From a virus, in the IMG/VR virus record IMGVR_UViG_3300046656_000208, positions 1 through 36,397 of that record: 36,397 bases of DNA; one strand, written 5' to 3'. The notes under the pieces were generated by a model. That model was not told where the DNA came from, did not search any database, and saw only the letters and a list, made by a program, of their open reading frames with translations. How positions within the stretch are numbered: position 1 is the first letter of the stretch; each line of letters opens with the position of its first letter. Positions 2,204-27,720 of the stretch are shown here, piece after piece. The translations under genes were made by a program, and so were the position numbers.

Positions 2204-2204
2204 C

Positions 2205-13621: not shown

Positions 13622-13630
13622 GAAGGACGC

Positions 13631-14564: not shown

Positions 14565-14568
14565 GGGG

Positions 14569-14724: not shown

Positions 14725-14945
14725 GCGAGGTCTCCCCGGAACAGGCCGCAGTAGGGCGCTGAGGTGCAGCCCGCTTCGCCGCAGGCCGGGCAGGTGGTGG
14801 GCTCGGGGTCCACCCCCTCGCCCTCCTCGTCCTCAGCGCGGCGCCGGTCGGCGGCCTCCTCGCAGGCCATCGAGCAGTAGGCGTCGGCATCGTAGCCGGT
14901 GGTGGGGTCCGAGGGCATCCAGCGTCCGCATTCCTGACAGGTCAT
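14721..14945 (-). CDS. Small Cys-rich, probable zinc-binding protein
   Basis: 74 residues, first gene of its minus-strand unit. Two Cys clusters flank an acidic linker: MTCQECGRW with CSMACEE, and TTCPACGEAGC. The first resembles the MYND/'CxxCG...CS..C' type found in small phage Zn fingers. 'gaggagac' about 9 nt before the ATG serves as ribosome binding site. The promoter element at 14968-14997 lies directly upstream. Confidence 0.6.
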   Translation of the reverse strand: MTCQECGRWMPSDPTTGYDADAYCSMACEEAADRRRAEDEEGEGVDPEPTTCPACGEAGCTSAPYCGLFRGDLA

Positions 14946-14967
14946 GTCTGTGTCTCCTCTACCAGTG

Positions 14968-14997
14968 ATCCTACACTAAGGCGGTTTGGCTTGTCAA
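14968..14997 (-). promoter_or_regulatory. Shared promoter-operator element, copy 1
   Basis: On the minus strand: -35 TTGACA (14992-14997), the dyad-like AAGCCAAACCGCCTT starting at its last base, and -10 TAGGAT (14968-14973) after an 18-bp spacer. Same element as at 16438, 18170, 23515, 25390 and 26400. Drives the three genes ending at 14142. Confidence 0.7.
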
Positions 14998-15035
14998 GCA
15001 GGGGAAGGACGGACAGCCCGCCCTCCCCCGGTGGG

Positions 15036-15416
15036 TCACTCGGGGAGCGGCGTCTCGCAGACCGGGCAGGCGTGCCCGCGCTGGTCCGCCCAGTCCACCC
15101 GCAGGGCCACGTTGAAGGTGCTGGGCCGGTTGACGCGGCACCAGTCCAGATAGGCGAGGCAGGCCACGAGTGCGGCCCCGGTATCTTGCCCGTCCAGAAA
15201 GGTGAGGATGGCCTCCGGCCGCACGTCGAGGTAGTGGTCGGCGGTGGCGGGCAGCACGCCTGCCTGTGTTAGCACGGCCTCCAGCCGCTTCGCGGCGCGG
15301 GCGAAGGCCTCGGTAGCGGTCTCCTCGTCGGTGTAGAGGCGGGCGGTCTCGGTGCCTTTGCCGATGCGGCGCATGGACGGAACGCGGTACTGTCGGCCGA
15401 GTATGGGCGGTGTCAT
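15036..15416 (-). CDS. Hypothetical protein with C-terminal CxxC
   Basis: 126 residues; AGGAG lies 8 nt before the ATG. Mostly helical (ETATEAFARAAKRLEAVLTQ), a middle with ALVACLAYLDWCRVNRP, and a C-terminal CPVCETPLPE. Not recognised. It is the last gene of the minus-strand unit that begins at 16388. About 90 bp separates it from the next unit's promoter region. Confidence 0.55.
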   Translation of the reverse strand: MTPPILGRQYRVPSMRRIGKGTETARLYTDEETATEAFARAAKRLEAVLTQAGVLPATADHYLDVRPEAILTFLDGQDTGAALVACLAYLDWCRVNRPSTFNVALRVDWADQRGHACPVCETPLPE

Positions 15417-15438
15417 GGTCTGGTCTCCTGCAACGGGG

Positions 15439-15633
15439 TTAGTCGCCTACGGGGATGCGGGCATCGGCCAGCGCCGCGGCTTCGCTGGCGAAGGGACCCA
15501 CGGGGTCCGTGTCGGGGCCGCAGCGCGGGTAGCGGGTCCACCACCACCAGCCCCCGTCACGCTCGAACGTTTCGATGTCGGGCAGGTCGTATTCCTGCTG
15601 GTCCCGGTCGGGTTCGCTGTAGTAGTGCGCCAT
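15439..15633 (-). CDS. Small hypothetical protein with Trp run
   Basis: 64 residues, starting MAHYYSEPDRDQQEY. The start is set by AGGAGA 8 nt upstream; longer in-frame starts have no such site. Contains four consecutive Trp (GGWWWWTRYPRCG) and an Ala-rich end (FASEAAALADARIPVGD). Not recognised. The C-terminal segment resembles the 'GPF.S...A..A' pattern of small phage proteins. Confidence 0.5.
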   Translation of the reverse strand: MAHYYSEPDRDQQEYDLPDIETFERDGGWWWWTRYPRCGPDTDPVGPFASEAAALADARIPVGD

Positions 15634-15685
15634 CGGTCGAGTCTCCTGAACAGGGGAGGGACCCTGCGGCCCCTCCCGGTGGGTG

Positions 15686-16120
15686 TTACCGTGCCGCCCG
15701 TCGGCGGGCACGGGCCTTCGCCTTCGCGGTGCGGGTCGCCAGCGCCTTCGCCCGCTGCTCGGGTGTGAAGGTGGGCAGGGTCCCTGCTGCCCTGCGCTCT
15801 GCCGCCAGCCTGCGACCGTGGCGGCGCCGGACCGTGGTGGTCAGGGCATCCCGCTGCCGGATGATGGCCGCGGTCACCTTCGGCGGCAGGACCATCTTGG
15901 TGGCCTGCTCGCCCTGCACGCAGGTGATGAACACGCTCTCGCCGTCCTCCCACTTCACCGTCTGCACCAGATAGGTGCTGACGTTGCCGTAGAAGTCCAT
16001 CGCCTGCACGACGGTGGGCTGGGTGTGGGCGCCGTTGGGGAGCCCGACCAGCCGGGACAGCGTTTGCTCGAACTGGGACGTGGGAAGGATCGTGCTCGTG
16101 GTAGACTGCGAATCGGTCAT
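15686..16120 (-). CDS. Hypothetical protein with very basic C-terminus
   Basis: 144 residues; GGAGAC about 8 nt upstream of ATG. The N-terminal 85 residues look like a small beta-rich domain (AMDFYGNVSTYLVQTVKW, VFITCVQGEQATKMVLP). The C-terminal 60 are Arg/Ala/Lys-rich (VRRRHGRRLAAERRA, ATRTAKAKARARRRAAR) and would bind nucleic acid without specificity. Not recognised. Confidence 0.55.
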   Translation of the reverse strand: MTDSQSTTSTILPTSQFEQTLSRLVGLPNGAHTQPTVVQAMDFYGNVSTYLVQTVKWEDGESVFITCVQGEQATKMVLPPKVTAAIIRQRDALTTTVRRRHGRRLAAERRAAGTLPTFTPEQRAKALATRTAKAKARARRRAAR

Positions 16121-16187
16121 TGGACTTGTCTCCGTGTAAGGCGGCCGGGGTCGCTTGTCACGATCCCGGCCGCGTGTGTGTCCGTCG

Positions 16188-16388
16188 TTAGCGCCCCGCC
16201 TTCAGCCAGTCGTATTCCTGCAGCCAGCGGTCCACGCTGAGGTTCTCGGCGTGGCAGACCGGGACGGAACTGGTAAACCAGTTCATCGCCTCGCCCTCCA
16301 CGAAGTAGTAGTACCCGCGCCCCTTCCGCAGCCGTTCCGCGTACCCGAGGGCCTTCAGTTCCCGATTGACTTCTGCGACGCGATTCAT
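16188..16388 (-). CDS. Small conserved phage protein
   Basis: 66 residues; start chosen at ATG 16388 because GGAGAC lies 6 nt upstream. Sequence: VNRELKALGYAERLRKGRGY, YYFVEGEAMNWFTSSV, SVDRWLQEYDWLK. It belongs to a short protein type common in tailed phages ('...G+GYYYF..G.A..W..SSVyv....l.....W'). Function unknown. First gene of a four-gene minus-strand unit behind the shared promoter at 16438-16467. Confidence 0.6.
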   Translation of the reverse strand: MNRVAEVNRELKALGYAERLRKGRGYYYFVEGEAMNWFTSSVPVCHAENLSVDRWLQEYDWLKAGR

Positions 16389-16437
16389 CGTCGGTCTCCG
16401 TGTGTGTCGGGCGGCCCCATCGCCACCCAACACACCC

Positions 16438-16467
16438 AGCTTAATCGAAGGCGGTTTCGCTTGTCAA
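16438..16467 (-). promoter_or_regulatory. Shared promoter-operator element, copy 2
   Basis: On the minus strand: TTGACA (16462-16467), AAGCGAAACCGCCTT, and -10 TAAGCT (16438-16443) at 18 bp, or TTAAGC at 17 bp. Predicted start near 16431, about 40 nt before the ATG of the gene at 16388. Confidence 0.7.
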
Positions 16468-16504
16468 CGTCCAAATGACCCGCCTCCAAAGATTTTTGAA
16501 AGGA

Positions 16505-16519
16505 AAGCGAAAGCGGCTT
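16505..16519. promoter_or_regulatory. Isolated operator-like copy
   Basis: The 15-mer AAGCGAAAGCGGCTT is identical to the operator core of the element at 25390. Here it lacks a properly spaced TTGACA and overlaps the stop codon of the minus-strand gene 16518-16847. It could be a repressor-only site or the remains of a duplicated promoter. Confidence 0.45.
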
Positions 16520-16847
16520 AGAACGGTCGGACGTGGCTCCCCGTCGGCGGCTGCGGCAGCGGCGGCGTCAGCCGGGCTCGCCAGCCCCCCTCGGGCGGAC
16601 CCTGCGGCCCCAGCAGGGCCTGTAAGGCGTTCCGCAGGACTTCGACGATCAGGGCGTTGGCGTCCCCGGTCGGGTCACTGGGAGGCGCTGGCGGGCTGGA
16701 GAGGGCCACCTGCGGCCCCGCCACCCGCGAGAGGCCGTAGCCGTGCCGCGAGGGCTCGTGGCCCTCGCAGCATTCCACCATCCCGAAGGTTTTGTGGTCG
16801 GTGCAGAGCACCGTCTGGTCCGCGCAGCCGAGGACGTAGCAGGCCAT
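16518..16847 (-). CDS. Hypothetical Cys-rich N-terminus, Pro-rich C-terminus
   Basis: 109 residues. Five Cys in the first 27 residues (MACYVLGCADQTVLCTDH, VECCEGH) suggest a small metal-binding module; the rest is a Pro/Leu-rich tail without visible fold. The ATG lies 3 nt after the stop of the DUF932 gene, so it is translated from the same message. Not recognised. Confidence 0.5.
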   Translation of the reverse strand: MACYVLGCADQTVLCTDHKTFGMVECCEGHEPSRHGYGLSRVAGPQVALSSPPAPPSDPTGDANALIVEVLRNALQALLGPQGPPEGGWRARLTPPLPQPPTGSHVRPF

Positions 16848-16850
16848 GCC

Positions 16851-17864
16851 CTACGCCGCCACCAGCTGCGTGGCCGCCTGCAGGGCCAGCCGCTTCACCG
16901 CGGCCGCCTGCCCGAACAATGCCGAGACGTTGCGCCGCTGCTGTGCCGCAGGCGTAGCGCCCGTGCCGGTGTAGACGTGATCGAAGTACTCCGTGACCGC
17001 GTTGTAGACGGCCCACGGATTCGGCACGCCGTCCGTCTCGGACATCGCCACCTCGGCTCCCACGCCGTGGAACACCAGATCGGCCACGACCGACCGCTGC
17101 TGCGCCACGAACGGGCTGACCTCGCCCTTCGGGCCGGACGGGAACACCGTTTCGATGTAGGCGATGACCTCCGTGGGGGTGAGGCGCTGGTGGGCCATCT
17201 GCGTGAAGGTCTGCCCGGTCTGCTCCATCGCCTGCAGGACCTGCGAGACGAGCGTGCGGGCCTGATCCAGCTGCTGGGGAATGGTGGTGCCGATGTGCGA
17301 GATGCCGAAGATGCGGCCCTTCACGGTGCCGCGGCCGAAGCTGCCGCCCAGTGCGGCGTCCAGCGTGTTCTGGCAGACCACCCGGATCGGGGTGGGCCGG
17401 AACTCGAAACAGGTGCTGCCGTCGTGCCCGGTGACGGCCAGCCCGTAGCCGTTGATGTCATCGCCCGCCACGGGGGTGAGGACCGTGGGGAGCCGGAACA
17501 GCATCCACGCCCGTTCGCCCTGCCCGAGGGCACCCGCCGCCGCCAGCGTCAGCCCGAAGTCCTCCACGGCCGACTGGAACAGACCGAAGGCCTCCGGGTA
17601 CTGGATCGGCTGATAGGCCTCTGAGACCACCGAGAGGACCCGGGCATCCGTGTCCCGGACGACGGCCCGCTTCATCGGGACGGGGGCGCCGTCCTGCAGA
17701 TACAGCTTCTCGGTGCGGACGGTCCAGTTGAGCGAGGCGGCGTCCAGCCCCGCGGCGATGCTGTGCAGGCCGTCGGGCAGCCGGGTCCCGAGCATGTGCC
17801 ACGGGGTGGCGCCCTGATAGGCCATTGCGATCTTGCCGTCGATGGTTGCGAGATTGTGTGCCAT
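16851..17864 (-). CDS. DUF932 phage/plasmid-like protein
   Basis: 337 residues, the usual length of the family (TIGR03299/DUF932). The N-terminus has the diagnostic MAYQGATPWHMLGTRLPDG ('MAY.G..PWH.LG..L'). Further typical parts are VSEAYQPIQYPEAFGLFQ, RVVCQNTLDAAL (family 'R.VC.NTL..A') and a helical C-terminus. Function is not known, though these proteins are widespread in phages and plasmids. ATG preceded by AGGAGA at 7 nt. Upstream of the ribosome site lies a (TG)11 run. Confidence 0.85.
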   Translation of the reverse strand: MAHNLATIDGKIAMAYQGATPWHMLGTRLPDGLHSIAAGLDAASLNWTVRTEKLYLQDGAPVPMKRAVVRDTDARVLSVVSEAYQPIQYPEAFGLFQSAVEDFGLTLAAAGALGQGERAWMLFRLPTVLTPVAGDDINGYGLAVTGHDGSTCFEFRPTPIRVVCQNTLDAALGGSFGRGTVKGRIFGISHIGTTIPQQLDQARTLVSQVLQAMEQTGQTFTQMAHQRLTPTEVIAYIETVFPSGPKGEVSPFVAQQRSVVADLVFHGVGAEVAMSETDGVPNPWAVYNAVTEYFDHVYTGTGATPAAQQRRNVSALFGQAAAVKRLALQAATQLVAA

Positions 17865-17876
17865 TGGTCTATCTCC

Positions 17877-17898
17877 TGTGTGTGTGTGTGTGTGTGTG
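17877..17898. repeat. (TG)11 dinucleotide repeat
   Basis: Eleven uninterrupted TG units (CA on the minus strand) lie in the 36-bp gap between the gene at 17901 and the DUF932 gene, ending against the DUF932 ribosome binding site. Length changes by slippage would alter the distance between genes without breaking a frame. Confidence 0.85.
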
Positions 17899-17900
17899 AA

Positions 17901-18122
17901 CTAGAAGCCCGCGATGATGGCGGCGCAGGGGGTGACGACAACGCGCAGGTTCGCAGCCCGGGCCAGCTGTTCGACGGCGGCGAGGACCTCCTGATGGGCA
18001 GAGTCCACGCGGACCGTGAGCGGCCAGACAGTGATGGCGGCCAGCGAGGCGAGGCGATAATTCGCCGTGATCTGCCGGGCGAACTGGGGGGCGGTCATGC
18101 GGCGGGTGGTGGTCGGGGTCAT
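17901..18122 (-). CDS. Small hypothetical protein
   Basis: 73 residues; AGGAG about 8 nt before ATG. One mixed alpha/beta stretch: MTAPQFARQITANYRLASLA, TVWPLTVRVDSAHQEVLAAV, ANLRVVVTPCAAIIAGF. Not recognised. First gene of the minus-strand unit that also holds DUF932, behind the shared promoter at 18170-18198. Confidence 0.5.
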   Translation of the reverse strand: MTPTTTRRMTAPQFARQITANYRLASLAAITVWPLTVRVDSAHQEVLAAVEQLARAANLRVVVTPCAAIIAGF

Positions 18123-18169
18123 GGTCTGTTCTCCTCGGTGTGTGACTGGCCTCAGCGCCAGTGACCCAA

Positions 18170-18198
18170 CATTAACCGAAGGCGGTTTCGGTTGTCAA
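18170..18198 (-). promoter_or_regulatory. Shared promoter-operator element, copy 3
   Basis: On the minus strand: TTGACA (18193-18198), ACCGAAACCGCCTTCGG as 17-bp spacer, -10 TTAATG (18170-18175). Faces away from the HTH gene at 18332, forming the divergent control region of the genome. Confidence 0.7.
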
Positions 18199-18273
18199 CA
18201 TCGAAATGACGAAGGACCCGAGATTTATTTTCACCGTCACGCATGAATCCTGTTGACACGGAGTTATGACGTA

Positions 18274-18286
18274 TGACAGGCTGTCA
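18274..18286. promoter_or_regulatory. Palindromic operator TGACAGGCTGTCA
   Basis: Perfect 6-bp arms around one base, 46 bp upstream of the HTH gene. A TTGACA at 18253-18258 lies just before it, but no good -10 is found at 16-18 bp. A related site lies at 18647-18659, before the second HTH gene. Confidence 0.5.
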
Positions 18287-18331
18287 CTCGGCTGGCATGA
18301 CGCGAGCCCACACACACAGGAGACAGCGACC

Positions 18332-18643
18332 ATGAACCTGACCATTCCCCAGACACAGGCCCGCCTCGGGGTGAGTAAGAACCGCGTGTATCGGCTGATT
18401 GCGGAGGGCCGACTGGTCCCAGCCGCGGAACGCAAGCCGGGCGCGCAGAAGTGGTTTCGGCGGTTCGATCTGAAGGCCGTGGACCAGCTGCGGCGCGAGA
18501 TGAAGGAGGACCCGCGGCTGCCGCTGGCCCGCCCCACGCCCGCGCCCAGCCCGGCCCCTCCGGCTCCGGCGATGCAGGGCCTCAGCACGCGGCTGGCGAG
18601 TATCGAGCGCAAGCTGGATACCCTGCTGCGGCTGTGGGAATAA
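18332..18643 (+). CDS. Excisionase/MerR-like winged-HTH regulator
   Basis: 103 residues; start at ATG 18332 with GGAGA 9 nt upstream (an earlier ATG at 18266 sits inside the control region). Residues 3-55 show the HTH_17 pattern: LTIPQTQARLGVSKNRVYRL, IAEGRLVPAAE, WFRRFDLKAVDQL. A Pro/Ala linker and a short C-terminal helix (LSTRLASIERKLDTLL), likely for oligomerisation, follow. No integrase is found in the window, so a regulatory rather than an excision role is as likely. Lies between the two TGACAG-type sites. Confidence 0.7.
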   Translation: MNLTIPQTQARLGVSKNRVYRLIAEGRLVPAAERKPGAQKWFRRFDLKAVDQLRREMKEDPRLPLARPTPAPSPAPPAPAMQGLSTRLASIERKLDTLLRLWE

Positions 18644-18645
18644 CG

Positions 18646-18675
18646 TTGACAGCCCGTCACAACAGGTCACACAAT
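18646..18675 (+). promoter_or_regulatory. Putative promoter with embedded TGACAG operator for the Cro-like gene
   Basis: TTGACA at 18646-18651 overlaps TGACAGCCCGTCA (18647-18659), a near-palindrome related to the site at 18274. A -10-like CACAAT lies at 18670-18675 with an 18-bp spacer. Predicted +1 falls about 2 nt before the ATG at 18684, so this message may be leaderless. Confidence 0.45.
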
Positions 18676-18683
18676 GAGCCCAT

Positions 18684-18896
18684 ATGACCGCCCCAAAAAC
18701 CTATCCGACGCTGCGAGCCTACGTGGACGCGCAGCCCCGCAGCGTGACGCAAAAGGACATCGCGGCGCGGCTGGGAATTTCCGCCGCGAGTCTGAGCTAT
18801 TACCTCAGCGGCAAGCGGTTCCCCAGCAGCGTGACCGCGTTTCGGATCTGCCAACGGTGCGGCGTGCCGCTGCACCGGCTGTTGAGGACCGCATGA
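18684..18896 (+). CDS. Cro/CI-type HTH regulator
   Basis: 70 residues. Helix-turn-helix at 22-44: TQKDIAARLGISAASLSYYL, followed by SGKRFPSSVTAFRICQRCG, the usual XRE layout ('G.s...S.yl.G.r.Ps...a..i...cgv'). Length is that of a Cro-like single-domain protein. There is no strong Shine-Dalgarno before ATG, in keeping with a very short or absent leader. Probable binder of the TGACAG-type or the shared AAGCG-type operator; which one cannot be told from sequence. Confidence 0.75.
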   Translation: MTAPKTYPTLRAYVDAQPRSVTQKDIAARLGISAASLSYYLSGKRFPSSVTAFRICQRCGVPLHRLLRTA

Positions 18897-19138
18897 AGGC
18901 GGGCACGATGGACGCGCTGGGCGACGGGCTGGTGCGGGTCTGGACCCGTGACGGGTGGGATTATCTGCGCTACTGTTTTCGCGCCGACCATCCGGCATGG
19001 ACCTCCCGCCCGAGCCCCGATCTGGAGTTTGTGAGTGCGTGCCCGCATTGCGTCGTGCGGCTCAGTGCCCAGTCGGGTATCGACCGCAGCGATGACTTGA
19101 AACGACTGGCGCAGGCGCAGGGCCTGACGCTGGCTTAA
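18893..19138 (+). CDS. Small hypothetical protein with CPHC
   Basis: 81 residues; ATGA overlap with the Cro-like gene. Contains VRVWTRDGWDYLRYCF and SACPHCVVRL; one CxxC only, plus an upstream Cys, so Zn binding is uncertain. Not recognised. First in the chain leading to the recombination genes. Confidence 0.5.
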   Translation: MKAGTMDALGDGLVRVWTRDGWDYLRYCFRADHPAWTSRPSPDLEFVSACPHCVVRLSAQSGIDRSDDLKRLAQAQGLTLA

Positions 19139-19155
19139 CCCGGAGACTTCCCCCC

Positions 19156-19752
19156 ATGACGACATCCGAGCAGATCAACGAACTGGCCGCGGCGCTGGCG
19201 AAGGCGCAGGCGGCGATGAAGAACGCGCCGCTGAACAAAGAGAATCCACACTTTCATTCTCGCTATGCGGACCTCGCGGGCATTCGGGATGCCGTCATCC
19301 CGGCGCTGAGTGCGCAGGGTCTTGCGGTGGTGCAGGTGCTCGATGTGAGCCGGGTCCTCACCCGGCTGATTCATGCCTCCGGGCAGTGGATTGAGAGTGC
19401 CTGTCCGCTGCCGCCCTCGGCCGATATGCAGAAGCTGGGATCGGCCATCACCTACGCCCGCCGCTACAGCCTCTCGGCGCTGTGCTGTATCGCGGCGGAC
19501 GATGACGATGATGCCAACGCGGCGGAGACGCTGACGCTGGCCGCGGACGTGGTGCCGACGCCGCCCGACTATGAGCAGTGGCTGCTCGATCTGGAGGCCG
19601 TGGCCGATGAGGGCACGGAGACGTTACGGAAGGTCTGGAAAACGTCCCAGCCCTATCTGCGGCAGCACCTCACGACCACCGACCCGGAGGCGTGGGAGGC
19701 GCTCAAGCAGCACGCGGCGGCGGTGACGGCGGAGAAGGGCAGGGACGCATGA
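19156..19752 (+). CDS. erf: Erf-family single-strand annealing protein
   Basis: 198 residues with a full ERF pattern: LAAALAKAQAAMKNAPLNK, NPHFHSRYADLAGIRDAV, LSAQGLAVVQVL, ASGQWIESACPLP, QKLGSAITYARRYSLSALC and the acidic IAADDDDDANAA. Such proteins form rings or filaments that pair complementary single strands, as P22 Erf does for genome circularisation and recombination. The C-terminal 70 residues are a divergent helical tail. It is followed by a YqaJ-type exonuclease, together a two-component recombinase. Confidence 0.95.
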   Translation: MTTSEQINELAAALAKAQAAMKNAPLNKENPHFHSRYADLAGIRDAVIPALSAQGLAVVQVLDVSRVLTRLIHASGQWIESACPLPPSADMQKLGSAITYARRYSLSALCCIAADDDDDANAAETLTLAADVVPTPPDYEQWLLDLEAVADEGTETLRKVWKTSQPYLRQHLTTTDPEAWEALKQHAAAVTAEKGRDA

Positions 19753-20015
19753 CGGCTGACGTCCGTGCGTTCGACGTGCCCTTCCTGTTTGGAGAGATTG
19801 ATGGCTTCGCCGTGCTGGGTCGCATTATTGACAACGGCGGGCGCATTCGGACGGACGTGATCAATGACTCGATGGCCGAGGCTGCCGAAGTCCACGCGCG
19901 GGCGATTCTCGCCCGGACGGACATTGATGCCCATGCGCGCGCCGTCATCACGCGGGTACAGCAGCGGCTGGTAAAGGTGATTGCCGCACGGCGACGTGTC
20001 CGGGGGTTGTCGTGA
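19749..20015 (+). CDS. Hypothetical protein in recombination operon
   Basis: 88 residues from ATG 19749 (ATGA overlap with erf). The sequence ADVRAFDVPFLFGEIDGFAV and the helical, His/Ala/Arg-rich AEVHARAILARTDIDAHARA are not recognised. The overlaps on both sides (4 nt each) place it firmly between annealase and exonuclease, so it may be an accessory of that pair. Confidence 0.5.
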   Translation: MTADVRAFDVPFLFGEIDGFAVLGRIIDNGGRIRTDVINDSMAEAAEVHARAILARTDIDAHARAVITRVQQRLVKVIAARRRVRGLS

Positions 20016-20692
20016 GCCACCCGTTTACGATCATCGACGCGCCGCAGCGGTCACCCGAGTGGCATCGGGCACGGCTGGGGCTACTGACAGGCTCCCGAGC
20101 GGGGGATGTGTTCGCCTTCAACAAGAACGGCGAGGAGTCCGCCGCACGGCGGGACTACCGGATGGAACTGGTCTGTGAGCGGATCACGGGCCAGCTGCCA
20201 GATGAGGGGTACGTCAGCGCGGCGCTGCAGCGGGGGATCGACTGCGAAGCACGGGCGGTGCGGGCGTATGAGGCGGCGACGGGGCAGCTGGTGCAGCGGA
20301 CGGGCTTTCTGCGGTCGCTGACGGATGACGCGGGCTGCTCGCTGGATGGGTCCATTGGAGACATGGAGGGCGTGATCGAAGTGAAGGCCCCGACCAGTGC
20401 CACCCACCTGCGGAACCTCCGGGCGGCGGGGGTGCGACATGAGTACTGGCCGCAGGTCACGCACGCCCTGTGGATCACGGGGGCGGCGTGGTGCGATTTC
20501 ATCAGCTTCGATGATCGGTTCCCACCGCCGTTGCATCTGCATATCGTGCGGTTCGCGCGGGCGGAGTCGTCCATTGCGGCCTATGCGACGAAGGCGCGGG
20601 CCTTTCTCGCGGAGGTGTCCCGCGATGTGGACGTGGTGCACACACTGGCCGGGATTGGCCCGGTCCTTCAGGAGATAGTGAGTCATGGCTGA
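20012..20692 (+). CDS. YqaJ/lambda-exonuclease-like recombination nuclease
   Basis: 226 residues, GTG start in a GTGA overlap. YqaJ motifs in order: SPEWHRARLGLLTGSRAGDV (12-33), RGIDCEARAVRAYEAATG (Glu79), then LDGSIGDMEGVIEVKAP with Asp112, Glu123 and Lys125, the PD-(D/E)XK catalytic set, and YWPQVTHALWITGAAWCDFI. These 5'-3' exonucleases resect duplex DNA to load an annealase; partner is the Erf gene two genes upstream. Family length is about 200-230. Confidence 0.9.
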   Translation: MSHPFTIIDAPQRSPEWHRARLGLLTGSRAGDVFAFNKNGEESAARRDYRMELVCERITGQLPDEGYVSAALQRGIDCEARAVRAYEAATGQLVQRTGFLRSLTDDAGCSLDGSIGDMEGVIEVKAPTSATHLRNLRAAGVRHEYWPQVTHALWITGAAWCDFISFDDRFPPPLHLHIVRFARAESSIAAYATKARAFLAEVSRDVDVVHTLAGIGPVLQEIVSHG

Positions 20693-20891
20693 GACGACAC
20701 GGAACGAGAACGAACGCGGCGCCCTGTGGGAAAAGACCAGCGGGCGCGGCACCTACATGACCGGCACGATTGACGGGCAGCCCTGCGTCGTGTTCAAAAA
20801 CGACCGGAAGAAGCCGGGGGACAAGACCCCGGATTGGCGCGTGATGAAACCGACGCCCAAGACGCCCAGCGGTGAGGAACCGCCCTTCTGA
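20685..20891 (+). CDS. Small protein resembling DUF736-type phage proteins
   Basis: 68 residues, overlapping the exonuclease gene by 8 nt. The sequence NERGALWEKTSGRGTYMTGT, IDGQPCVVFKND resembles short phage proteins with a 'GaLf......ytG.i.i.g..y' pattern, likely a small beta barrel. In a recombination operon a single-strand-binding role is imaginable but unproven. Confidence 0.45.
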   Translation: MAETTRNENERGALWEKTSGRGTYMTGTIDGQPCVVFKNDRKKPGDKTPDWRVMKPTPKTPSGEEPPF

Positions 20892-21310
20892 TGGCAGGGC
20901 CGGTGCCGGTGTTCCACGGCGTCGTGACCGCCGAGGGGAAGTTACTGCTGGAGGCCCGGGATCTGTTCCGGCATTATGTGCAGCGGCTGAAGAATCAGCC
21001 GGTGCAGCTGGTGCTGAAGCGGCAGGTGCGGCTGAAGTCCCGGTCGCAGCTGGGCTTTCTGTGGGGGGTGCTGTATCCGGTCATCGCGGAGGCGCTGGGC
21101 TACTGCGCGTATGAAGTGGACGCCCTGCACGATGCGATCATGCTGGAGGTGCGGGGCCTGCGGCCCGAGCCCAATCCCCTCAAGCTGCGGGTCTCGCTGT
21201 CGCAGATGTCGCATGAGGAAGTCAGCGACTACATCAGCGACGTGCGGTTCTGGGCGCTGGATCGGTATGGCATTGTGACGCCGGATGCCGCCAGCGTGGA
21301 GGCCGCGTGA
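20891..21310 (+). CDS. NinB-like recombination protein
   Basis: 139 residues. RLKSRSQLGFLWGVLYPVIA, GYCAYEVDALHDAIML and FWALDRYGIVTPDAAS match the phage pattern '+S..Qn.l.w....p.iae..G.t.de.H......f', used for NinB/Orf-type and related proteins, which act with Red-like recombinases by binding single-stranded DNA. Position directly behind Erf and exonuclease supports this. Start ATG overlaps the stop of the previous gene by 1 nt. Confidence 0.55.
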   Translation: MAGPVPVFHGVVTAEGKLLLEARDLFRHYVQRLKNQPVQLVLKRQVRLKSRSQLGFLWGVLYPVIAEALGYCAYEVDALHDAIMLEVRGLRPEPNPLKLRVSLSQMSHEEVSDYISDVRFWALDRYGIVTPDAASVEAA

Positions 21311-21387
21311 TGGGGGAACTGCTGCTGATCCTCGTGGTGCTGGCGGCGATGGCGCTGGGCGCGTGGCTGGAAGGGCTGAGCCGATGA
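21310..21387 (+). CDS. 25-residue single-pass membrane peptide
   Basis: MGELLLILVVLAAMALGAWL then EGLSR. ATG overlaps the previous stop (TGATG) and its own stop overlaps the next start (ATGA). It is almost entirely one membrane helix. Conserved overlap on both sides is the main support that it is translated. Function unknown. Confidence 0.5.
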   Translation: MGELLLILVVLAAMALGAWLEGLSR

Positions 21388-21614
21388 TCCTGAAAGACAA
21401 TGGCGGCTCCATGCCGACGATGCCCGTCGAGGACGCCGTGGACCCCGTGACGGAGTGGGTCATCCGCTGTGAACAGTGCGGGCACGCGATGCAGGCGCAC
21501 TATGCGGTGAATCTCACGGACGGCGTGGCGGTCGGGCGCTACTGGCTGATCTGTCCCACGGCGGTGTTCCGGGCGCCGGGGTATCGCGCGGATGGGACGC
21601 AGGGGCCGTCGTGA
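21384..21614 (+). CDS. Small CxxC protein
   Basis: 76 residues, ATGA overlap start. Contains VIRCEQCGHAMQAHYAV and YWLICPTAVFRAPG: two Cys, His residues and a distant third Cys, possibly a degenerate zinc ribbon. Not recognised. Confidence 0.5.
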   Translation: MILKDNGGSMPTMPVEDAVDPVTEWVIRCEQCGHAMQAHYAVNLTDGVAVGRYWLICPTAVFRAPGYRADGTQGPS

Positions 21615-21805
21615 TGAAGTGGCACCCCATGCGGGATGCGCCACGGGATCGGTTGATTCTTGTCTGGGCTCCGGGCGTCCACGGCCTCCCCGCCATGTAC
21701 GCGCTCTGCCGATGGCATCCTGACGCGGGCTGGTGCATAGACGAACTCCGCGAGCCGACGCATTGGATGCCGCTGCCACCGAGTCCTGACGAGGGGCGGA
21801 TCTGA
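21614..21805 (+). CDS. DUF551-like small phage protein
   Basis: 63 residues. MKWHPMRDAPRDRLILVWAP and HWMPLPPSPDEG match the DUF551 type ('W.pi..aP.dg..ilv......HWmPLP..p'). These short proteins are common in phage early regions; the function is not known. ATG touches the previous TGA; an in-frame GTG lies 3 nt upstream. Confidence 0.7.
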   Translation: MKWHPMRDAPRDRLILVWAPGVHGLPAMYALCRWHPDAGWCIDELREPTHWMPLPPSPDEGRI

Positions 21806-21918
21806 TGCCGTGGTTCTGGCGGCTGGTGAATGCGGTGCGGCGGTGGCGGGAGGATCGGCGGGTGCCCGAGGCCAGCACGGTGGCGCAATGGCGGGCGGTG
21901 TGGCGGAGGGACGCATGA
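21805..21918 (+). CDS. 37-residue Trp/Arg-rich mini-protein
   Basis: MPWFWRLVNAVRRWREDRRV then ASTVAQWRAVWRRD. Starts in a TGATG overlap and ends in an ATGA overlap. An amphipathic, basic helix that could lie on a membrane or nucleic acid. Not recognised; support is from the overlaps only. Confidence 0.4.
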   Translation: MPWFWRLVNAVRRWREDRRVPEASTVAQWRAVWRRDA

Positions 21919-22046
21919 CGACGGATGGGATCGTGGGGCTCGTGATCCTGTGTGGGGTTGTCGCGCTGCTGGTGTATTGTCCCATCTTCAAGCCGTGGTT
22001 TGGGTTCAGGCGCCCTCCGGGGCATACGGGGCACTGGTTTGAGTGA
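21915..22046 (+). CDS. 43-residue single-pass membrane protein
   Basis: One hydrophobic helix (GIVGLVILCGVVALLVYC, residues 5-22) then a basic, Pro/Gly-rich tail FRRPPGHTGHW. ATGA overlap start. Could sit in the inner membrane; a role in lysis is possible for any such protein here but nothing in the sequence proves it. Confidence 0.5.
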   Translation: MTTDGIVGLVILCGVVALLVYCPIFKPWFGFRRPPGHTGHWFE

Positions 22047-22179
22047 CCAGCGCCGGAGTACCCGCTGCGAGGCCTGTCAGACCGCCCCGTGGTGTTTTAT
22101 CCGCATCGGGGCCACGCGGCTGCGGTTCCTCTGCCTCGATTGCTGGCGCGTCTCCGCTGGCCGACGGCGGACCCGATGA
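22039..22179 (+). CDS. Small zinc-ribbon-like protein (TTG start)
   Basis: 46 residues from a TTG that overlaps the previous gene by 8 nt; no ATG or GTG is available in frame. CEACQTAPWCFIRI and FLCLDCWR give CxxC...CxxC spacing of a small zinc ribbon. The start is uncertain; the Cys pattern and 4-nt overlap with the next ATG support it. Confidence 0.45.
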   Translation: MSDQRRSTRCEACQTAPWCFIRIGATRLRFLCLDCWRVSAGRRRTR

Positions 22180-22289
22180 ACTGCGTCTATGACTGCAATC
22201 AGCGGACGGCGCTGCTGGTGCGCTGCGTGCGGTGTGCCCGCTGGTGGTGGATGACCGTGCCGCGGTTTGTCTGCGGGGCGTGCCGATGA
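22176..22289 (+). CDS. 37-residue Cys-rich mini-protein
   Basis: Sequence includes NCVYDCNQRT, VRCVRCARWWWM and FVCGACR: three C-x2/3-C pairs in 37 residues, likely Zn binding. ATGA overlaps on both ends; it directly precedes the methyltransferase. Confidence 0.5.
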   Translation: MNCVYDCNQRTALLVRCVRCARWWWMTVPRFVCGACR

Positions 22290-23518
22290 TCGAGTCCCTG
22301 CTCCTCGGGGATTGCCGCGCGGTGCTGCCCACGCTGCCGGAGGCCTCGCTGGAGGCCTGCGTGACCGACCCGCCGTACGAACTCGGCTTTATGGGGAAGG
22401 CGTGGGATTCCAGCGGCGTGGCGACGGACCCGGCGACGTGGCGGGCGGTGCATCGCGTGCTGAAGCCGGGGGCGTATCTGCTGGCGTGTGGCGGGACGCG
22501 CACCTATCACCGGATGGCGGTGGCGATCGAAGATGCGGGCTTTGAGATTCGCGATTGTCTCGCGTGGCTGTATGCCTCCGGCTTTCCGAAGTCGCTCAAT
22601 CTGGGCGAGGGGTTAGGGACGGCGCTGAAGCCCGCCTATGAGCCCATCATTATGGCGCGCAAGCGATTCACCGGAACGGTGGCGGCGAACGTCGCGGCGC
22701 ACGGCACAGGGGCGCTGAACATTGATGCCTGCCGGATTCGGATGTCGGCTGATGATGCGGAGACGATTCGCACGATGAGCGGCTGGGGGAAGGCTGGGAG
22801 CATGTACATCGGGCACGTCCTCGATGTGGATGGGTCGCTGAACCGCGTGACCGATGCCGCCGCGCATGATCTCGGCCGCTGGCCCGCCAACGTCACGCTG
22901 GACGACGGCGCGGCGCGCGTGCTCGATGAGCAAAGCGGTCTGAGCACGTCCTCTGCGACCCCAGCGGGGACGTGGCGTGCGGGAATGGGCTACCACGGCG
23001 GCGTGGGCCGCGTGCTGACGACCGACACTCCAGACGATACGGGCGGCGCCTCGCGTTTCTTCTTCACGGCGAAGCCGTCACGCGAGGAGCGGGATTGGGG
23101 CTGTGAGGCCTTCGAAGCCAAGACGGCGGCGGAACTGACGAACCGCGCACCGGGCAGCAAGGGGCTCCAGAATCCGCGTGCGGGCATTCGCGCCGGATCG
23201 ATGGACCGGGATGTGGCGGCGCGGGTCGCCCGCAATCACCACACCACGGTGAAGCCGGTGGCGCTGATGCGCTGGCTGGTGCGGCTCGTCACGCCCATCG
23301 GGGGCACGGTGCTCGACCCCTTTCTGGGCTCAGGGACGACGGGCATGGCCTGTCGAGCGGAGCAACGCGGGTACGTGGGCATCGAGCAGGACGCCGCCTA
23401 TCTCGCCCTCGCACAGGCGCGCATTGCGGCGGTGGCGCCGCTGTTTGCGGAGGTGCAGGCGGAGGCCCCGACGCCGGACGCCCAGCTGTCGCTGCTGGGG
23501 CTCTGCGAGGGGGCTTGA
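22286..23518 (+). CDS. DNA methyltransferase (N6-adenine/N4-cytosine, beta class)
   Basis: 410 residues from ATG 22286. Motif IV CVTDPPYELGFMGKAW is at 25-40; motif I LDPFLGSGTTGMACRAEQRG begins at about 343, then GYVGIEQDAAYL. Catalytic motif before SAM-binding motif is the beta-class order of the N6_N4_Mtase family. A 200-residue target-recognition part lies between (including GRWPANVTLDDGA and SRFFFTAKPS, typical for phage methylases, and HHTTVKPVALMRWLVRL before motif I). No restriction enzyme is next to it, so it is an orphan enzyme, likely protecting phage DNA. Confidence 0.9.
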   Translation: MIESLLLGDCRAVLPTLPEASLEACVTDPPYELGFMGKAWDSSGVATDPATWRAVHRVLKPGAYLLACGGTRTYHRMAVAIEDAGFEIRDCLAWLYASGFPKSLNLGEGLGTALKPAYEPIIMARKRFTGTVAANVAAHGTGALNIDACRIRMSADDAETIRTMSGWGKAGSMYIGHVLDVDGSLNRVTDAAAHDLGRWPANVTLDDGAARVLDEQSGLSTSSATPAGTWRAGMGYHGGVGRVLTTDTPDDTGGASRFFFTAKPSREERDWGCEAFEAKTAAELTNRAPGSKGLQNPRAGIRAGSMDRDVAARVARNHHTTVKPVALMRWLVRLVTPIGGTVLDPFLGSGTTGMACRAEQRGYVGIEQDAAYLALAQARIAAVAPLFAEVQAEAPTPDAQLSLLGLCEGA

Positions 23519-23544
23519 CAAGCGAATCCGCTATCGGTTATGCT
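23515..23544 (+). promoter_or_regulatory. Shared promoter-operator element, copy 4 (leaderless layout)
   Basis: TTGACA at 23515-23520, operator AAGCGAATCCGCTA, -10 TATGCT at 23539-23544 (18 bp; TTATGC at 17 bp). Six bases separate the -10 from ATG at 23551, so the predicted +1 is the A of ATG. The -35 overlaps the stop codon of the methyltransferase gene. Confidence 0.7.
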
Positions 23545-23550
23545 GTTCTC

Positions 23551-23763
23551 ATGACACAGACACCAGCAGACACCATGACCTACATTGTGATGTGCCGCGT
23601 CAGTGGCGGCGTGACCGGGACCCGTGAGGCCCCCCTCAAGCAGAACGGACAGACGCAGGTGTTTCAGACGTGGGAGGAGGCGACCGCGGAAGCGGCGAAG
23701 CTGAATCGTCCACGGCCGTACGCGACGGCTGACTTCCGCTACTGGGTCGAGCCGACCGCATGA
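23551..23763 (+). CDS. Small hypothetical protein, possibly leaderless
   Basis: 70 residues from ATG 23551; a second ATG at 23575 (MTYIVMCRVSGGVTGTR) also lacks a ribosome site. The core YIVMCRVSGGVTGTREAPLK and VFQTWEEATAEAAKL looks like a small alpha/beta domain found in phage proteins ('y.v....gG.tG.r.a..k......f.t..eA...A..l'). Start position coincides with the predicted transcript 5' end. Confidence 0.55.
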   Translation: MTQTPADTMTYIVMCRVSGGVTGTREAPLKQNGQTQVFQTWEEATAEAAKLNRPRPYATADFRYWVEPTA

Positions 23764-24071
23764 AACTCACCGATCCGGTCTCACTCGCCTCACCGGAGAT
23801 CTGGCGGGTGTTCTATGTGCTGGCGCTGGGCAGGGTCATCGCGGAGGCCGTGCAGGGTCTCCCGGGGAGTTGGATCGGTCTCGCAGCGGCCGTGGTGGTG
23901 CCCGCGATGCTCTGGTGTGTGGGTGGACCCGTAATAGCTGCGCTGAATCGCGCATGGGACTGGCTCTGGGACGTGACCGTGCGTCTGGGCTGGGTGGTGC
24001 TGGCGCTGAGCATTCCGCTGAGCCTGCTCTACCTGTTCATCCGGTTCGTCAAGTGGGCGTGGGTCGGCTGA
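23760..24071 (+). CDS. Membrane protein with two to three helices
   Basis: 103 residues, ATGA overlap. Hydrophobic stretches: WIGLAAAVVVPAMLWCVGG (about 37-56), and LGWVVLALSIPLSLLYLFI (about 76-95), with a possible first one near YVLALGRVIAEAV. Compact size and helix number would suit a holin, but no lysis genes are recognised near it. Last gene before the long intergenic stretch. Confidence 0.5.
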   Translation: MKLTDPVSLASPEIWRVFYVLALGRVIAEAVQGLPGSWIGLAAAVVVPAMLWCVGGPVIAALNRAWDWLWDVTVRLGWVVLALSIPLSLLYLFIRFVKWAWVG

Positions 24072-24114
24072 GTACGCTGTATTTTGTAGTTGATCTTTTC
24101 GGCGCAGGCGCCGT

Positions 24115-24237
24115 TAAATAAAAGCGGCCCGTCGAACCGATGCGGTTCCAACGGGCCTGACCGCGGGCGGTGGGGACACCGCGCACGGTGACCGCGATCT
24201 GTGTAGGCAGCACAGAAGGCGGCTGGAGTCGGTCTCC
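24115..24237 (-). ncRNA. Candidate small RNA (about 120 nt)
   Basis: Minus-strand -10-like TAGAAT (complement of 24244-24249) predicts a start near 24237, though the -35 is weak. The transcript would fold into GC-rich hairpins and end at the intrinsic terminator at 24116-24157. No open frame is needed to explain it. An antisense or regulatory RNA is possible; support is structural only. Confidence 0.35.
24116..24157 (-). terminator. Intrinsic terminator (minus strand)
   Basis: Outer stem GGCCCGT/ACGGGCC (24126-24132 with 24151-24157) and inner stem GAACCG/CGGTTC (24134-24139 with 24143-24148), loop ATG. On the minus strand it is followed by GCTTTTATTTAA. No minus-strand gene lies upstream of it, which is why a small RNA is proposed. 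Confidence 0.6.
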
Positions 24238-24556
24238 GGACCTATTCTATCCCACCTTTCAGCCTTCCACACAAATCCCGGTCGCGCTGTCGGGCTAGCG
24301 CGATACAAAGCAGAACCCGCGAGACAGGCGACACGCAGTTTGCGCCGCGCTGATAGCGCCGCTGGTGGGCCAGAACCCCAGCACCTAAATCCGGGGACGG
24401 GCTGACGGCATCTTCCCTCCCGGTCCCTCATCACGACGTTGGGTGACAGTGATGATGGTGAGATTTCCTACAGGCTCCGCATAGGGAGATGAGGGGAAAA
24501 AGATGCCGGTGGTACGTTCTTCTAGATCGCGTAAGTACACCGGAGGTGAATGGGCC

Positions 24557-24862
24557 ATGACCACGTTCGACGAGTTTTGGGCGGCGTACCCGCGCCGCGT
24601 GGCGAAGAAGGACGCGCTGAAGGCGTGGACGCAGCTGCGGCCCACCGCGGCGGTGCTGGCCCTGATGGCGGAGGCGCTGGCATGGCAGGTCGAGCAGGAG
24701 TCATGGACGAAGGACGGCGGCGCCTATGTGCCGTATCCGGCGACGTGGCTGCGGGGGGAACGGTGGACCGATGAACCGCTGGCGGCGGTCGTGCCGACCG
24801 TGCAGCGCACGCCTGCGGAAGTCCGCAATCTGGACATGCTGCGGCGCTGGGGGCGGCGATGA
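24557..24862 (+). CDS. Replication-protein-like 'FWxAYPRR' domain protein
   Basis: 101 residues from ATG 24557. TFDEFWAAYPRRVAKKDALK, AWTQLRP and YVPYPATWLRGERWTDEPL match a domain often found at the C-terminus of phage replication initiators or replisome organisers ('f..FW.aYPrK.gK..A..aW..l......fi.hp.tWLn...W.de'). Here it stands alone. An alternative start at 24503 has gagggg 6 nt upstream and adds 18 basic residues; GGAGG lies 10 nt before 24557. Probably DNA binding in replication. Confidence 0.6.
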   Translation: MTTFDEFWAAYPRRVAKKDALKAWTQLRPTAAVLALMAEALAWQVEQESWTKDGGAYVPYPATWLRGERWTDEPLAAVVPTVQRTPAEVRNLDMLRRWGRR

Positions 24863-25104
24863 CGTGGGGCCGGGTGACGCACATGGTCCTCTGCGGGCTG
24901 TGTCGGGAGTGGATGCGGAAAGGCGACCCCGTGCTGTTCGTCACGACGGCCCGCCTGCGGCGCTGCGCGGCCTGTGCGGCCAAAGACTACCAGCTGACGC
25001 CCCCTGACCCCCAGACGCCCATCACGGCCTCTCCGGCCCCCCTGACGTTCCGGACGCCTGCGGGCTGGGTGACGGAGCAGCGGCCGTTGTTTGAGAAGCC
25101 GTGA
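24859..25104 (+). CDS. Small zinc-ribbon-like protein
   Basis: 81 residues, ATGA overlap. VLCGLCREWMRKGDPVLF and RRCAACAAKD form a CxxC-x(n)-CxxC zinc ribbon, followed by a Pro/Thr-rich tail. Resembles small HNH-less zinc proteins of phages; function unknown. Confidence 0.55.
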   Translation: MTWGRVTHMVLCGLCREWMRKGDPVLFVTTARLRRCAACAAKDYQLTPPDPQTPITASPAPLTFRTPAGWVTEQRPLFEKP

Positions 25105-25385
25105 GGCGCCGTGCCCGCGTCGATGCGAACCACGCCGCGGTGGTGCAGGCGCTGCGGGCCTGCGGGTGGCTGGTCTGGGACACCTCGGGGCTGGGCGGGG
25201 GCTTCCCCGATGTCGTGGTGGCGCGGGCGGGGGTGCTGCGGCTGGTGGAAATCAAAGACGGGCGCCTGTCGCCCAGCCGCCGCACGCTGACCCCGGCCGA
25301 AGCGGCGTGTCATACGGCGATGGCTGCGGCGGGGGTGCCGGTGGTGGTGGTGGCGAGCGTGGCGGAGGCGGTGGCCCTGATCTAA
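25101..25385 (+). CDS. VRR-NUC-like nuclease
   Basis: 94 residues, GTG start in a GTGA overlap. RVDANHAAVVQALRACGW, GLGGGFPDVVVARAG (Asp37) and LRLVEIKDGRLSPSRRTLTP (Glu50, Lys52) make a complete small PD-(D/E)XK domain of the VRR-NUC/Holliday-resolvase-like type found next to phage replication genes. It is the second PD-(D/E)XK protein of this size after that at 14142, besides the YqaJ enzyme. Likely resolves branched DNA before packaging. Confidence 0.75.
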   Translation: MRRRARVDANHAAVVQALRACGWLVWDTSGLGGGFPDVVVARAGVLRLVEIKDGRLSPSRRTLTPAEAACHTAMAAAGVPVVVVASVAEAVALI

Positions 25386-25389
25386 CCAC

Positions 25390-25418
25390 TTGACAAGCGA
25401 AAGCGGCTTCGGTTACAG
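25390..25418 (+). promoter_or_regulatory. Shared promoter-operator element, copy 5
   Basis: TTGACA (25390-25395), operator core AAGCGAAAGCGGCTT, -10 TTACAG (25413-25418) at 17 bp. Unlike copies 4 and 6 it is followed by a leader of about 40 nt with a GGAG site before ATG 25466. Confidence 0.7.
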
Positions 25419-25465
25419 TGTCTGTGGTGGCGCGTGAGCCACCCACACATACCGGAGACCGGACC

Positions 25466-26377
25466 ATGACACAGACCCGCACCGACGCCCACCGCCCCAG
25501 CGTGATCGTCCCCGCCGACTACGCCCACGTCCTGTCGTATGACCTCCCCACGCAGATGCCCGGCGTCGGCGTGAACTGCGAGCGGGATCGGGCGGTCTGC
25601 CGTTTTGACGAGACGACCGGCCGGATCGTCCTCGTGAGCCCCGGCCGCCACGATGCCGACGGCCGCTGCTGCCTCACCGGCCTCTCCACCATCGCCCACG
25701 TCCGCTTTGCCGAGACGGGCGGCACCGGGCAGTGCTCGACCTGCGGCGCGCACTTCCTCTACGGCGATGTCTGGGTCCACGTCCCGACCGGCGAACACAT
25801 TCACCTCGGCCATCAGTGCGCCGACAAGTACGCGCTGCTGGTGGACCGGAGCGCCTATCAGCTGGCCCTCGGGCGCCGTCAGGCCGCCGCCGCGGCCCAG
25901 CTGACGCGGGTGGCGAACTGGGAGGCCCGGACGGCCTTTCTCGCGGCGCACCCCGGCCTCGCGGAGGACCTGCAGCAGGCCCACCCCATCCTGCGGGACC
26001 TCTCGGCCAAGCTGACGCAGTATCACAGCCTCAGCGACAAGCAGATCGCCTTCGCGGCCACGCTGGCCGCCGAGGTGCGGAACCCGGCCCCGGCCGAGCA
26101 GCATGTGGCGGCGCCCACCGGCACCGTCACGGTTCGCGGCACGGTGGTCAGCGTGAAGGTGCATGAGGGCGCCTACGGCACGTCGCTGAAGATGACCGTG
26201 AAGGTGCAGACCCCCGCGGGCAGCTGGCTGGCGTGGGGCACCGTCCCGACCTCGCTGGACGTGGCGAAGGGCGCGACGGTCCAGTTCGTGGCGACCCTGC
26301 AGGCGGGGAACGACCCGCACTTCGCCTTCTTCAAGCGGCCCCGGCAGGCCGTCGTTCTCGGGGAGGTGGCGGCCTAG
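25466..26377 (+). CDS. Zn-binding protein with C-terminal OB-like domain
   Basis: 303 residues; GGAG about 8 nt before ATG. A Cys4-type or treble-clef-like site is suggested by CSTCGAHFLYGDVW (Cys90, Cys93) and HIHLGHQCADKY (about 111-122). The middle is helical. Residues about 220-300 (GTVTVRGTVVSVKVHEGAYG, SLKMTVKVQTPAGSWLAWGT, HFAFFKRPR) look like an OB fold, as in a known but unnamed protein type of actinophages and related phages. Possibly a nucleic-acid-binding protein. Stop codon lies in the loop of the following terminator. Confidence 0.6.
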   Translation: MTQTRTDAHRPSVIVPADYAHVLSYDLPTQMPGVGVNCERDRAVCRFDETTGRIVLVSPGRHDADGRCCLTGLSTIAHVRFAETGGTGQCSTCGAHFLYGDVWVHVPTGEHIHLGHQCADKYALLVDRSAYQLALGRRQAAAAAQLTRVANWEARTAFLAAHPGLAEDLQQAHPILRDLSAKLTQYHSLSDKQIAFAATLAAEVRNPAPAEQHVAAPTGTVTVRGTVVSVKVHEGAYGTSLKMTVKVQTPAGSWLAWGTVPTSLDVAKGATVQFVATLQAGNDPHFAFFKRPRQAVVLGEVAA

Positions 26378-26396
26378 CCGCCGCCCCTCATTTTTC
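26365..26396 (+). terminator. Intrinsic terminator with stop codon in loop
   Basis: Nine-bp stem GGTGGCGGC/GCCGCCGCC (26365-26373 with 26377-26385), loop CTA, then cctcaTTTTTcc. The TAG of the upstream gene spans loop and stem. Separates that unit from the promoter at 26400. Confidence 0.75.
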
Positions 26397-26399
26397 CTG

Positions 26400-26428
26400 T
26401 TGACAAGCGAAACCGCTTCAGGTAAGCT
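26400..26428 (+). promoter_or_regulatory. Shared promoter-operator element, copy 6 (leaderless layout)
   Basis: TTGACA (26400-26405), perfect dyad AAGCG-AAAC-CGCTT, -10 TAAGCT (26423-26428) at 17 bp. Six bases lie between -10 and ATG 26435, as in copy 4. Confidence 0.75.
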
Positions 26429-26434
26429 TCTCTC

Positions 26435-26683
26435 ATGACACCGACACAGCGCGGCATCACGAACGCGAACGGCTTCCGGGCGATGGCCTCGTTGCGGAAG
26501 GCCGCACAGGACCCCCGCATTGAAGAAATCGAAGGCGGCGGTCTGGACGAGGGCCGCGTGTTCGTCCACGCGCTGCGCGGCTGGCGCTTCCGCGAGTCCG
26601 ACACGATCAGCTACTCGGTGGGCTCCGCACAGGACCTCCGCATGGCGCTGGGCTTTTTGGTCCGCGATGAGGAGGCCCGCTGA
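26435..26683 (+). CDS. Small hypothetical protein, possibly leaderless
   Basis: 82 residues, no ribosome binding site before ATG; predicted transcription starts on it. Contains NGFRAMASLRKAAQDPRIEE, GRVFVHALRGWRFRESDTIS and QDLRMALGFLV: a small alpha/beta protein. The initial ATGACAC.GACAC is shared with the gene at 23551. Not recognised. Confidence 0.55.
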   Translation: MTPTQRGITNANGFRAMASLRKAAQDPRIEEIEGGGLDEGRVFVHALRGWRFRESDTISYSVGSAQDLRMALGFLVRDEEAR

Positions 26684-27123: not shown

Positions 27124-27161
27124 GCCGCGGATTGATTCGTGGTTGATTAGATCGATTCCGC

Positions 27162-27717: not shown

Positions 27718-27720
27718 GCC

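Follow-up and report, generated by a model that had tools for sequence, protein, structure and literature searches.

A six-copy promoter element with an operator-like spacer dyad in the genome of an uncultured phage

We analysed an entire viral contig (IMGVR_UViG_3300046656_000208, G000 in our set; 36,397 bp, 65.7% G+C; hereafter the window) and characterised a promoter element present in six copies, P1 to P6 (Table 1). The six-copy element is real and well above chance. We consider it probable that each of the six promoters contains an operator and that one repressor acts on all of them; this repressor may be the product of one of the helix-turn-helix (HTH) genes, another phage protein or a host protein. 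This reading is based on sequence, geometry, conservation and recurrence in one related phage; binding, repression and timing are inferred from them.

At the mechanistic level, each element would be a promoter of the sigma-70 type, with an operator of about 20 bp, AASCGAA-N6-TTCGSTT, occupying its spacer of 17-18 nt. A dimeric repressor on this dyad would cover both hexamers, excluding RNA polymerase, and the six units, three leftward (P1, P2, P3) and three rightward (P4, P5, P6), would switch together. A promoter-less copy 62 bp upstream of P2 would serve as an auxiliary operator. The first-pass annotation of this DNA had proposed that promoters of both strands carry a dyad resembling an operator in their spacers, and this part stands; a common switch of the six gene units via one regulator is plausible.

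The promoter element and its spacer

All six sites have a -35 and a -10 hexamer at the 16-19 nt distance of sigma-70 promoters: 18 nt in P1-P5 and 17 nt in P6, where one spacer base is absent. The pattern TTGACA-N17/18-TAnnnT occurs at these six places only in the whole window. TTGACA itself occurs 17 times, and the other 11 all lie more than five mismatches from the shared 17-mer. Allowing two mismatches, TTGACAAGCGAAACCGC was found at six places, against none in 200 order-1 simulations. The first-pass annotation had placed all six sites correctly; with the -10 read as TAnnnT, as we did to set the ends, four of its intervals are exact and those of P3 and P5 are one base short.

The best-kept columns of the element are the -35 and the -10. 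Mean pairwise identity among the six copies was 0.85 over spacer bases 1-11 and 0.62 over bases 12-18 (with P6 unshifted for its absent base), while the flanks stayed at background (0.28 for the 30 nt upstream and 0.29 for the 30 nt downstream; background 0.276). A spacer that is conserved while its flanks are not is a first reason to read it as an operator. The sequence upstream of P2 and P3 is exceptionally alike (0.63 identity), and so these two, at the minimum, represent copies of a longer segment.

A reading without any regulator, in which a preferred strong promoter was copied round the genome and its spacer kept for promoter strength, would fit the well-kept hexamers and the copying seen at P2 and P3. 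It would also fit some copies in a related phage contig (G007, see below) that have poor -35s, yet keep CGGTTAAnCT at the -10. Against it stand the spacer kept between background flanks, the dyad symmetry, a seventh copy without promoter and a promoter-rich control. This control was G006, a phage contig of 127,895 bp brought in by a single site in our promoter and spacer scan. The pattern TTGACA-N17/18-TAnnnT occurs there at 59 places, with an identity of only 27% over spacer bases 1-11 against a background of 25%; the most similar set of six found among these places reached 55%. When G006 was scanned with a scoring matrix built solely from the six sites of the window (threshold, best simulation score), only the known site exceeded the best of 5 simulations (26.6 vs. 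23.0; next 22.2). G006 repeats the hexamers without conserving the spacer, therefore repetition of strong promoters alone does not keep a spacer. Because of this control, our confidence in the operator reading rose slightly and the regulator-free alternative, which we had already doubted, now appears improbable. Most of the promoter places of G006 lie in 33558-86791 (-), and 54 of the 59 are on the minus strand; this region of the phage is very rich in promoters.

The dyad fills the spacer and takes in, at its edges, the final A of the -35 and the opening bases of the -10. Written as AASCGAA-N6-TTCGSTT, it forms 32 of 42 possible pairs over the six sites, a pairing equalled by 0.48% of column permutations (as the rows are related, this value is a guide only). 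A second, overlapping dyad beside the -10, AACCG-N4-CGGTT, was weaker (3.3% of column permutations). The first-pass annotation was right to see a dyad in the spacer; however, the form it gave, AAGCG-AAAC-CGC(C)TT, is perfect only at P6 and is fitted less well by the sites than ours. The TCGGTTA that it often saw after TTGACA holds in three of six (P3, P4 and P5).

It also missed a seventh copy of the dyad, which has neither a -35 nor a -10 and sits between genes of a leftward operon. Its 15 nt are identical to the core of P5, and 3.8e-5 exact copies of this 15-mer are expected by chance. The centre-to-centre distance to the dyad of P2 is 62 bp, about six helical turns. Both the excess of the dyad over column permutations and this copy without hexamers argue for an operator. 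Such a promoter-less copy between genes could also suggest operators with a roadblock role, like mycobacteriophage stoperators. We regard this as very unlikely, since six of the seven copies lie in promoters and just one outside.

Recurrence in related phages

A pattern scan of viral contigs for the promoter with its spacer returned six stretches: L005, a near-identical copy of this phage, the contig G007 and four others. Of these four, L033, L034 and L035 had one match each within 3 mismatches, and the fourth is the control contig G006. G007 (40,310 bp) is related to the window over aligned stretches of the terminase (55% identical), Erf (46%), the replication protein (51%) and the portal (23%). 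Four G007 sites scored 34.9, 29.4, 26.8 and 22.1 bits with the matrix (best of 10 simulations, 20.8). The top-scoring one had brought G007 in, and the other three were placed independently; the fourth, at 39804, reads TTGACG at the -35 and is poor in its left half. Further sites at 5131, 6490 and 35976, found via right-half patterns, keep the right half and the -10 and do not keep TTGACA. The promoter at 37936 has an inverted partial copy directly upstream. These additional matrix sites, together with the inverted copy, are a further reason for the operator reading. In six of the seven G007 sites an ATG follows six or seven bases past the -10. We also observed that the genes behind the three strongest G007 promoters (4427, 36221 and 37972) all start with MANT, and that the repeated unit spans the -35 through the first codons.

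Besides G007 and L008, eleven other contigs were scanned with the matrix, and in nine of them the best scores were between 9.8 and 17.5 bits. L004 reached 17.1 and L006 25.8 bits, the latter more than one of the four G007 sites; the exact 17-mer had been the basis for selecting both. A match of 19.1 bits at 10274 of L008 (best of 10 simulations, 12.6) was taken as coincidence; it falls within an open frame of 416 codons which, judged by eye, looks like a gene start of L011. The exact-core scan of IMG/VR returned four stretches, L005 and the lone hits L004, L006 and L007, which were set aside. The same was done with the two matches of an outer-dyad scan of IMG/VR, both lone. A scan of IMG/VR for the right half plus start returned four stretches, two of them in G007; the others, L054 and L055, were judged by eye to be coding coincidences. 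The set is seen in two lineages only. The first-pass annotation had suggested a motif search of the full genome and related phages: the promoter sites in the window are just six, and further sites are found in G007.

At the protein level, relatives were found at two loci for the HTH_3 protein, four for the portal and nine for the terminase, and the search for relatives of the HTH_17 protein returned none. Among 50,697 phage records there was no near-DNA match to window positions 14000-27000. The best portal among the matches listed (15 of 68) was 29.8% identical, and all 68 were below 60%. A near-identical contig (L008) extends past the end of the window, so the contigs may lack parts.

Candidate regulators within the phage

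The first-pass annotation named two HTH genes as the likely regulator, an excisionase-type HTH_17 gene and a Cro/CI-type HTH_3 gene (Table 1). If the 70-amino acid HTH_3 protein or the HTH_17 protein bound the operator in a Cro-like shut-off, a case that overlaps with the reading we favour, both would be suited as DNA-binding families, and CGAA-N6-TTCG has the half-site spacing of 434-type operators. Moreover, the HTH_17 gene is divergent from P3, its start lying 134 bp from the -35 and 139-158 bp from the dyad. However, the element is absent directly upstream of both genes. The TTGACA at 18646, before the HTH_3 gene, has a spacer unrelated to it. In a lambdoid Cro/CI operator set the operators would stand at the promoters of such regulator genes, and no copy lies directly before the HTH_3 gene. 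A separate dyad before both genes, TGACAG-N-CTGTCA (18274 and 18647), would also count against this assignment, but it was rejected as not above chance (30 of 100 shuffles). G007 had no HTH_3 or HTH_17 match at E<=0.1, though it carries the element (G007 may be incomplete), which weakens these two candidates. Altogether, we find their role as the regulator doubtful, though worth keeping in mind.

The 66-amino acid HTH protein at 35577-35777 (+) has weak similarity to sigma-70 region 4, is 40% identical to a frame in L011 and is a further candidate regulator. In G007, a protein of 137 amino acids at 8014-8427 weakly resembles the C-terminal domain of RNA polymerase alpha (E 8.5e-04, below cut-off). 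Contig G001 encodes an HTH_3 protein 49% identical to that of the window. At 18159-18245, G001 also has divergent promoters that have ATACGGC-TAT-GCCGTAT as a common dyad in their spacers; the small gene next to them is XRE-like by eye, yet without a PF01381 match. The window, G007 and G004 had no match to LexA_DNA_bind (PF01726), none to the LacI family (PF00356) at E<=0.1 and none to the PF00589 integrase, the kind of integration gene that a temperate-phage immunity regulon would go with (the contigs may be incomplete, and serine recombinases were not searched).

Chromosomal promoters of similar design

The dyad-in-promoter pattern TTGACAASCGAA-N5..7-TTCGGTTA, built from the phage sites, was found at nine places in genome_contigs. 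All nine precede a repressor-family gene (seven LexA_DNA_bind, one TetR_N and one LacI), which argues for operator function. These look-alikes support the predicted repressor-in-spacer design without naming the regulator of the phage.

The binder could then be a host regulator of the LexA- or LacI-like operator type, borrowed by the phage, which again overlaps with the reading we favour. The lexA genes provide most of the nearest chromosomal promoters, and their sites all contain CGAAC-N4-GTTCG (7/7). The inner C and G of this SOS box are present in none of the seven window copies and in no phage copy, so we dropped LexA as the identity of the binder. LacI-family operators are palindromes of the type AAnCGnTT with a required central CG. 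The promoter of a Thalassospira lucentensis lacI-family gene (L025) equals P3 at 25 of 26 bases, and in an alignment of six window and six G007 sites (39804 left out) all 12 retain the central CG. Three of these 12 were, however, chosen by patterns containing CG, and this selection slightly lowered the weight we give to a host regulator. The full palindrome is not kept in most window sites, and L025 is a single, lone near-match; a LacI identity is retained only as part of this alternative. A precedent exists in phage GIL01, which is repressed by host LexA (PMC6182141). On the other side, the chromosomal likeness was sought with a phage-derived pattern. In eight of the nine genomes with chromosomal matches no terminase was found, and 400 genomes from the phylum to which the Chloroflexi match (L020) belongs gave just one, at 29% identity. 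We therefore judge a borrowed host regulator unlikely.

Several points weigh against the reading we favour. The dyad arms are imperfect in five of the six sites. The left half and centre of the element are kept better than the right half, and therefore the bound site may be non-symmetrical. The dyad permutation value of G007 (0.022) leans on three rows picked by dyad-like patterns. A repressor under autoregulation usually has its operator at its own gene, and the element precedes none of the recognised regulator genes of the window. The two viral matches of the chromosomal pattern, those of the outer-dyad scan, precede no recognised repressor gene. Finally, six terminase relatives besides G007 and the near-identical contigs (G013-G018) show no such set, several of them being short (G014, G016 and G017 have only 4.5-13.4 kb).

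Comparison with known systems

In the Streptomyces phage phiC31, conserved inverted repeats stand at many early promoters and the repressor gene is identified. The lexA promoters of Chloroflexi and other metagenome-assembled genomes share with our element TTGACA, an AASCGAA..TTCGGTT that fills the spacer and a TAnnnT-like -10; they differ by having the SOS box with its inner C and G. In GIL01, host LexA is the phage repressor, its binding is measured, and several promoters of the phage contain dyad boxes (PMC6182141). Dyad boxes in several promoters are common to both phages, and a non-phage regulator is one possible reading here; by contrast, our box is not of the LexA CGAAC type and our operator is predicted from sequence. 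In L5 and other cluster A mycobacteriophages, one repressor site is present in many genome copies, in promoters and between genes (PMC9283540); these sites are 13-bp, asymmetric, in more than 20 copies and predicted to bind a monomer. In our case the site is a 20-bp dyad in seven copies, six of them in promoters; being promoters, the window sites are oriented with transcription, but they are dyadic. The design belongs to a known kind, that of lexA promoters, GIL01 (PMC6182141) and cluster A (PMC9283540). Among the titles listed by literature searches on repeated phage promoters or operators, none describes this element.

Gene units and other features

Mostly small genes stand first behind the promoters (Table 1). 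P4 is located at the end of a methyltransferase gene, and P6 is followed by small genes and, further downstream, by the terminase genes. At P4 and P6 the ATG (23551 and 26435) comes 6 nt past the -10, and for this reason their messages are probably leaderless, beginning at the start codon. The window contains four instances of ATGAC[ACT]CnGAC, each at the start of the gene behind P3, P4, P5 or P6. The regulon was called early and phage-wide in the first-pass annotation. An early timing is putative, P6 standing upstream of the terminase genes. Phage-wide is too wide: no copy stands in front of the block 18266-23518 (both HTH genes, Erf, exonuclease and methyltransferase), and the structural region of the window has none. 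For the terminator consensus, 13 sites were found in 13600-28600 against a mean of 4.6 in shuffles.

Table 1. Promoter elements, first genes of their units and associated features of the window
Feature	Position	Strand	Description
P1	14968-14997	-	TTGACA-N18-TAGGAT; half-sites of dyad 14973-14992, 4/7 arm pairs
P2	16438-16467	-	TTGACA-N18-TAAGCT; dyad 16443-16462, 6/7 arm pairs
P3	18169-18198	-	TTGACA-N18-TAATGT; dyad AACCGAA-N6-TTCGGTT at 18174-18193, perfect
P4	23515-23544	+	TTGACA-N18-TATGCT; dyad 23520-23539, 5/7 arm pairs
P5	25390-25419	+	TTGACA-N18-TACAGT; dyad 25395-25414, 6/7 arm pairs
P6	26400-26428	+	TTGACA-N17-TAAGCT; 4/7 arm pairs; AAGCG-AAAC-CGCTT perfect
Seventh dyad copy, no promoter	16505-16519	+	AAGCGAAAGCGGCTT, 15 nt identical to P5 core; 20-bp frame 16505-16524
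First gene of P1 unit	14721-14945	-	74 aa, without confident family
First gene of P2 unit	16188-16388	-	66 aa, phrog_9154 (unknown function)
First gene of P3 unit	17901-18122	-	73 aa; then DUF932 gene 16851-17864
First gene of P4 unit	23551-23763	+	Small protein of unknown function
First gene of P5 unit	25466-26377	+	303 aa; PHROGs of unknown function
First gene of P6 unit	26435-26683	+	82 aa
HTH_17 (excisionase-type) gene	18332-18643	+	Pfam match; first candidate of the first-pass annotation
HTH_3 (Cro/CI-type) gene	18684-18896	+	70 aa; Pfam match; second candidate of the first-pass annotation
Terminator-like stem	26365-26385	+	9 pairs, T-rich tail; between P5 unit and P6; consensus match only

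Independently of the element, a leader GGAGAC 3-8 nt before the ATG, frequently with A/C-rich sequence before it, recurs at many gene starts on both strands; GGAGAC-N3..8-ATG has 11 matches, for example at 18319 (+), 25454 (+) and 16399 (-).

The window encodes a P22-type portal, a large terminase, Erf, a YqaJ exonuclease and the DUF932 protein. After the portal gene, a 220-amino acid protein (34568-35230, +) has a C-terminal PEP-CTERM sorting motif (PF07589, E 8e-07). This motif is unusual for a phage, and the protein hints at a Gram-negative host with an exosortase. Three related tandem genes of about 420 amino acids each occupy 2151-6001 (+), with DNA repeats 66-82% identical to the reference copies; one has a weak ART-PolyVal match (E 5e-05, below cut-off) and another no Pfam match. 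Four repeats with 168-bp spacing lie within one long open frame at 6178-6901 (+).

Conclusions

The most far-reaching version of these findings would be that a promoter-operator cassette, in some copies with a built-in leaderless start, is maintained in two related podovirus lineages and answers to a regulator not encoded by the phage, a host repressor of LexA/LacI-like operator type that times all six units; we would be surprised if all of it held. The element provides a precise and testable regulatory map for this uncultured lineage, and its DNA could be used as bait to find the regulator. If that regulator proved to be the host's, this phage would add to the few known to hand the switch to their host.

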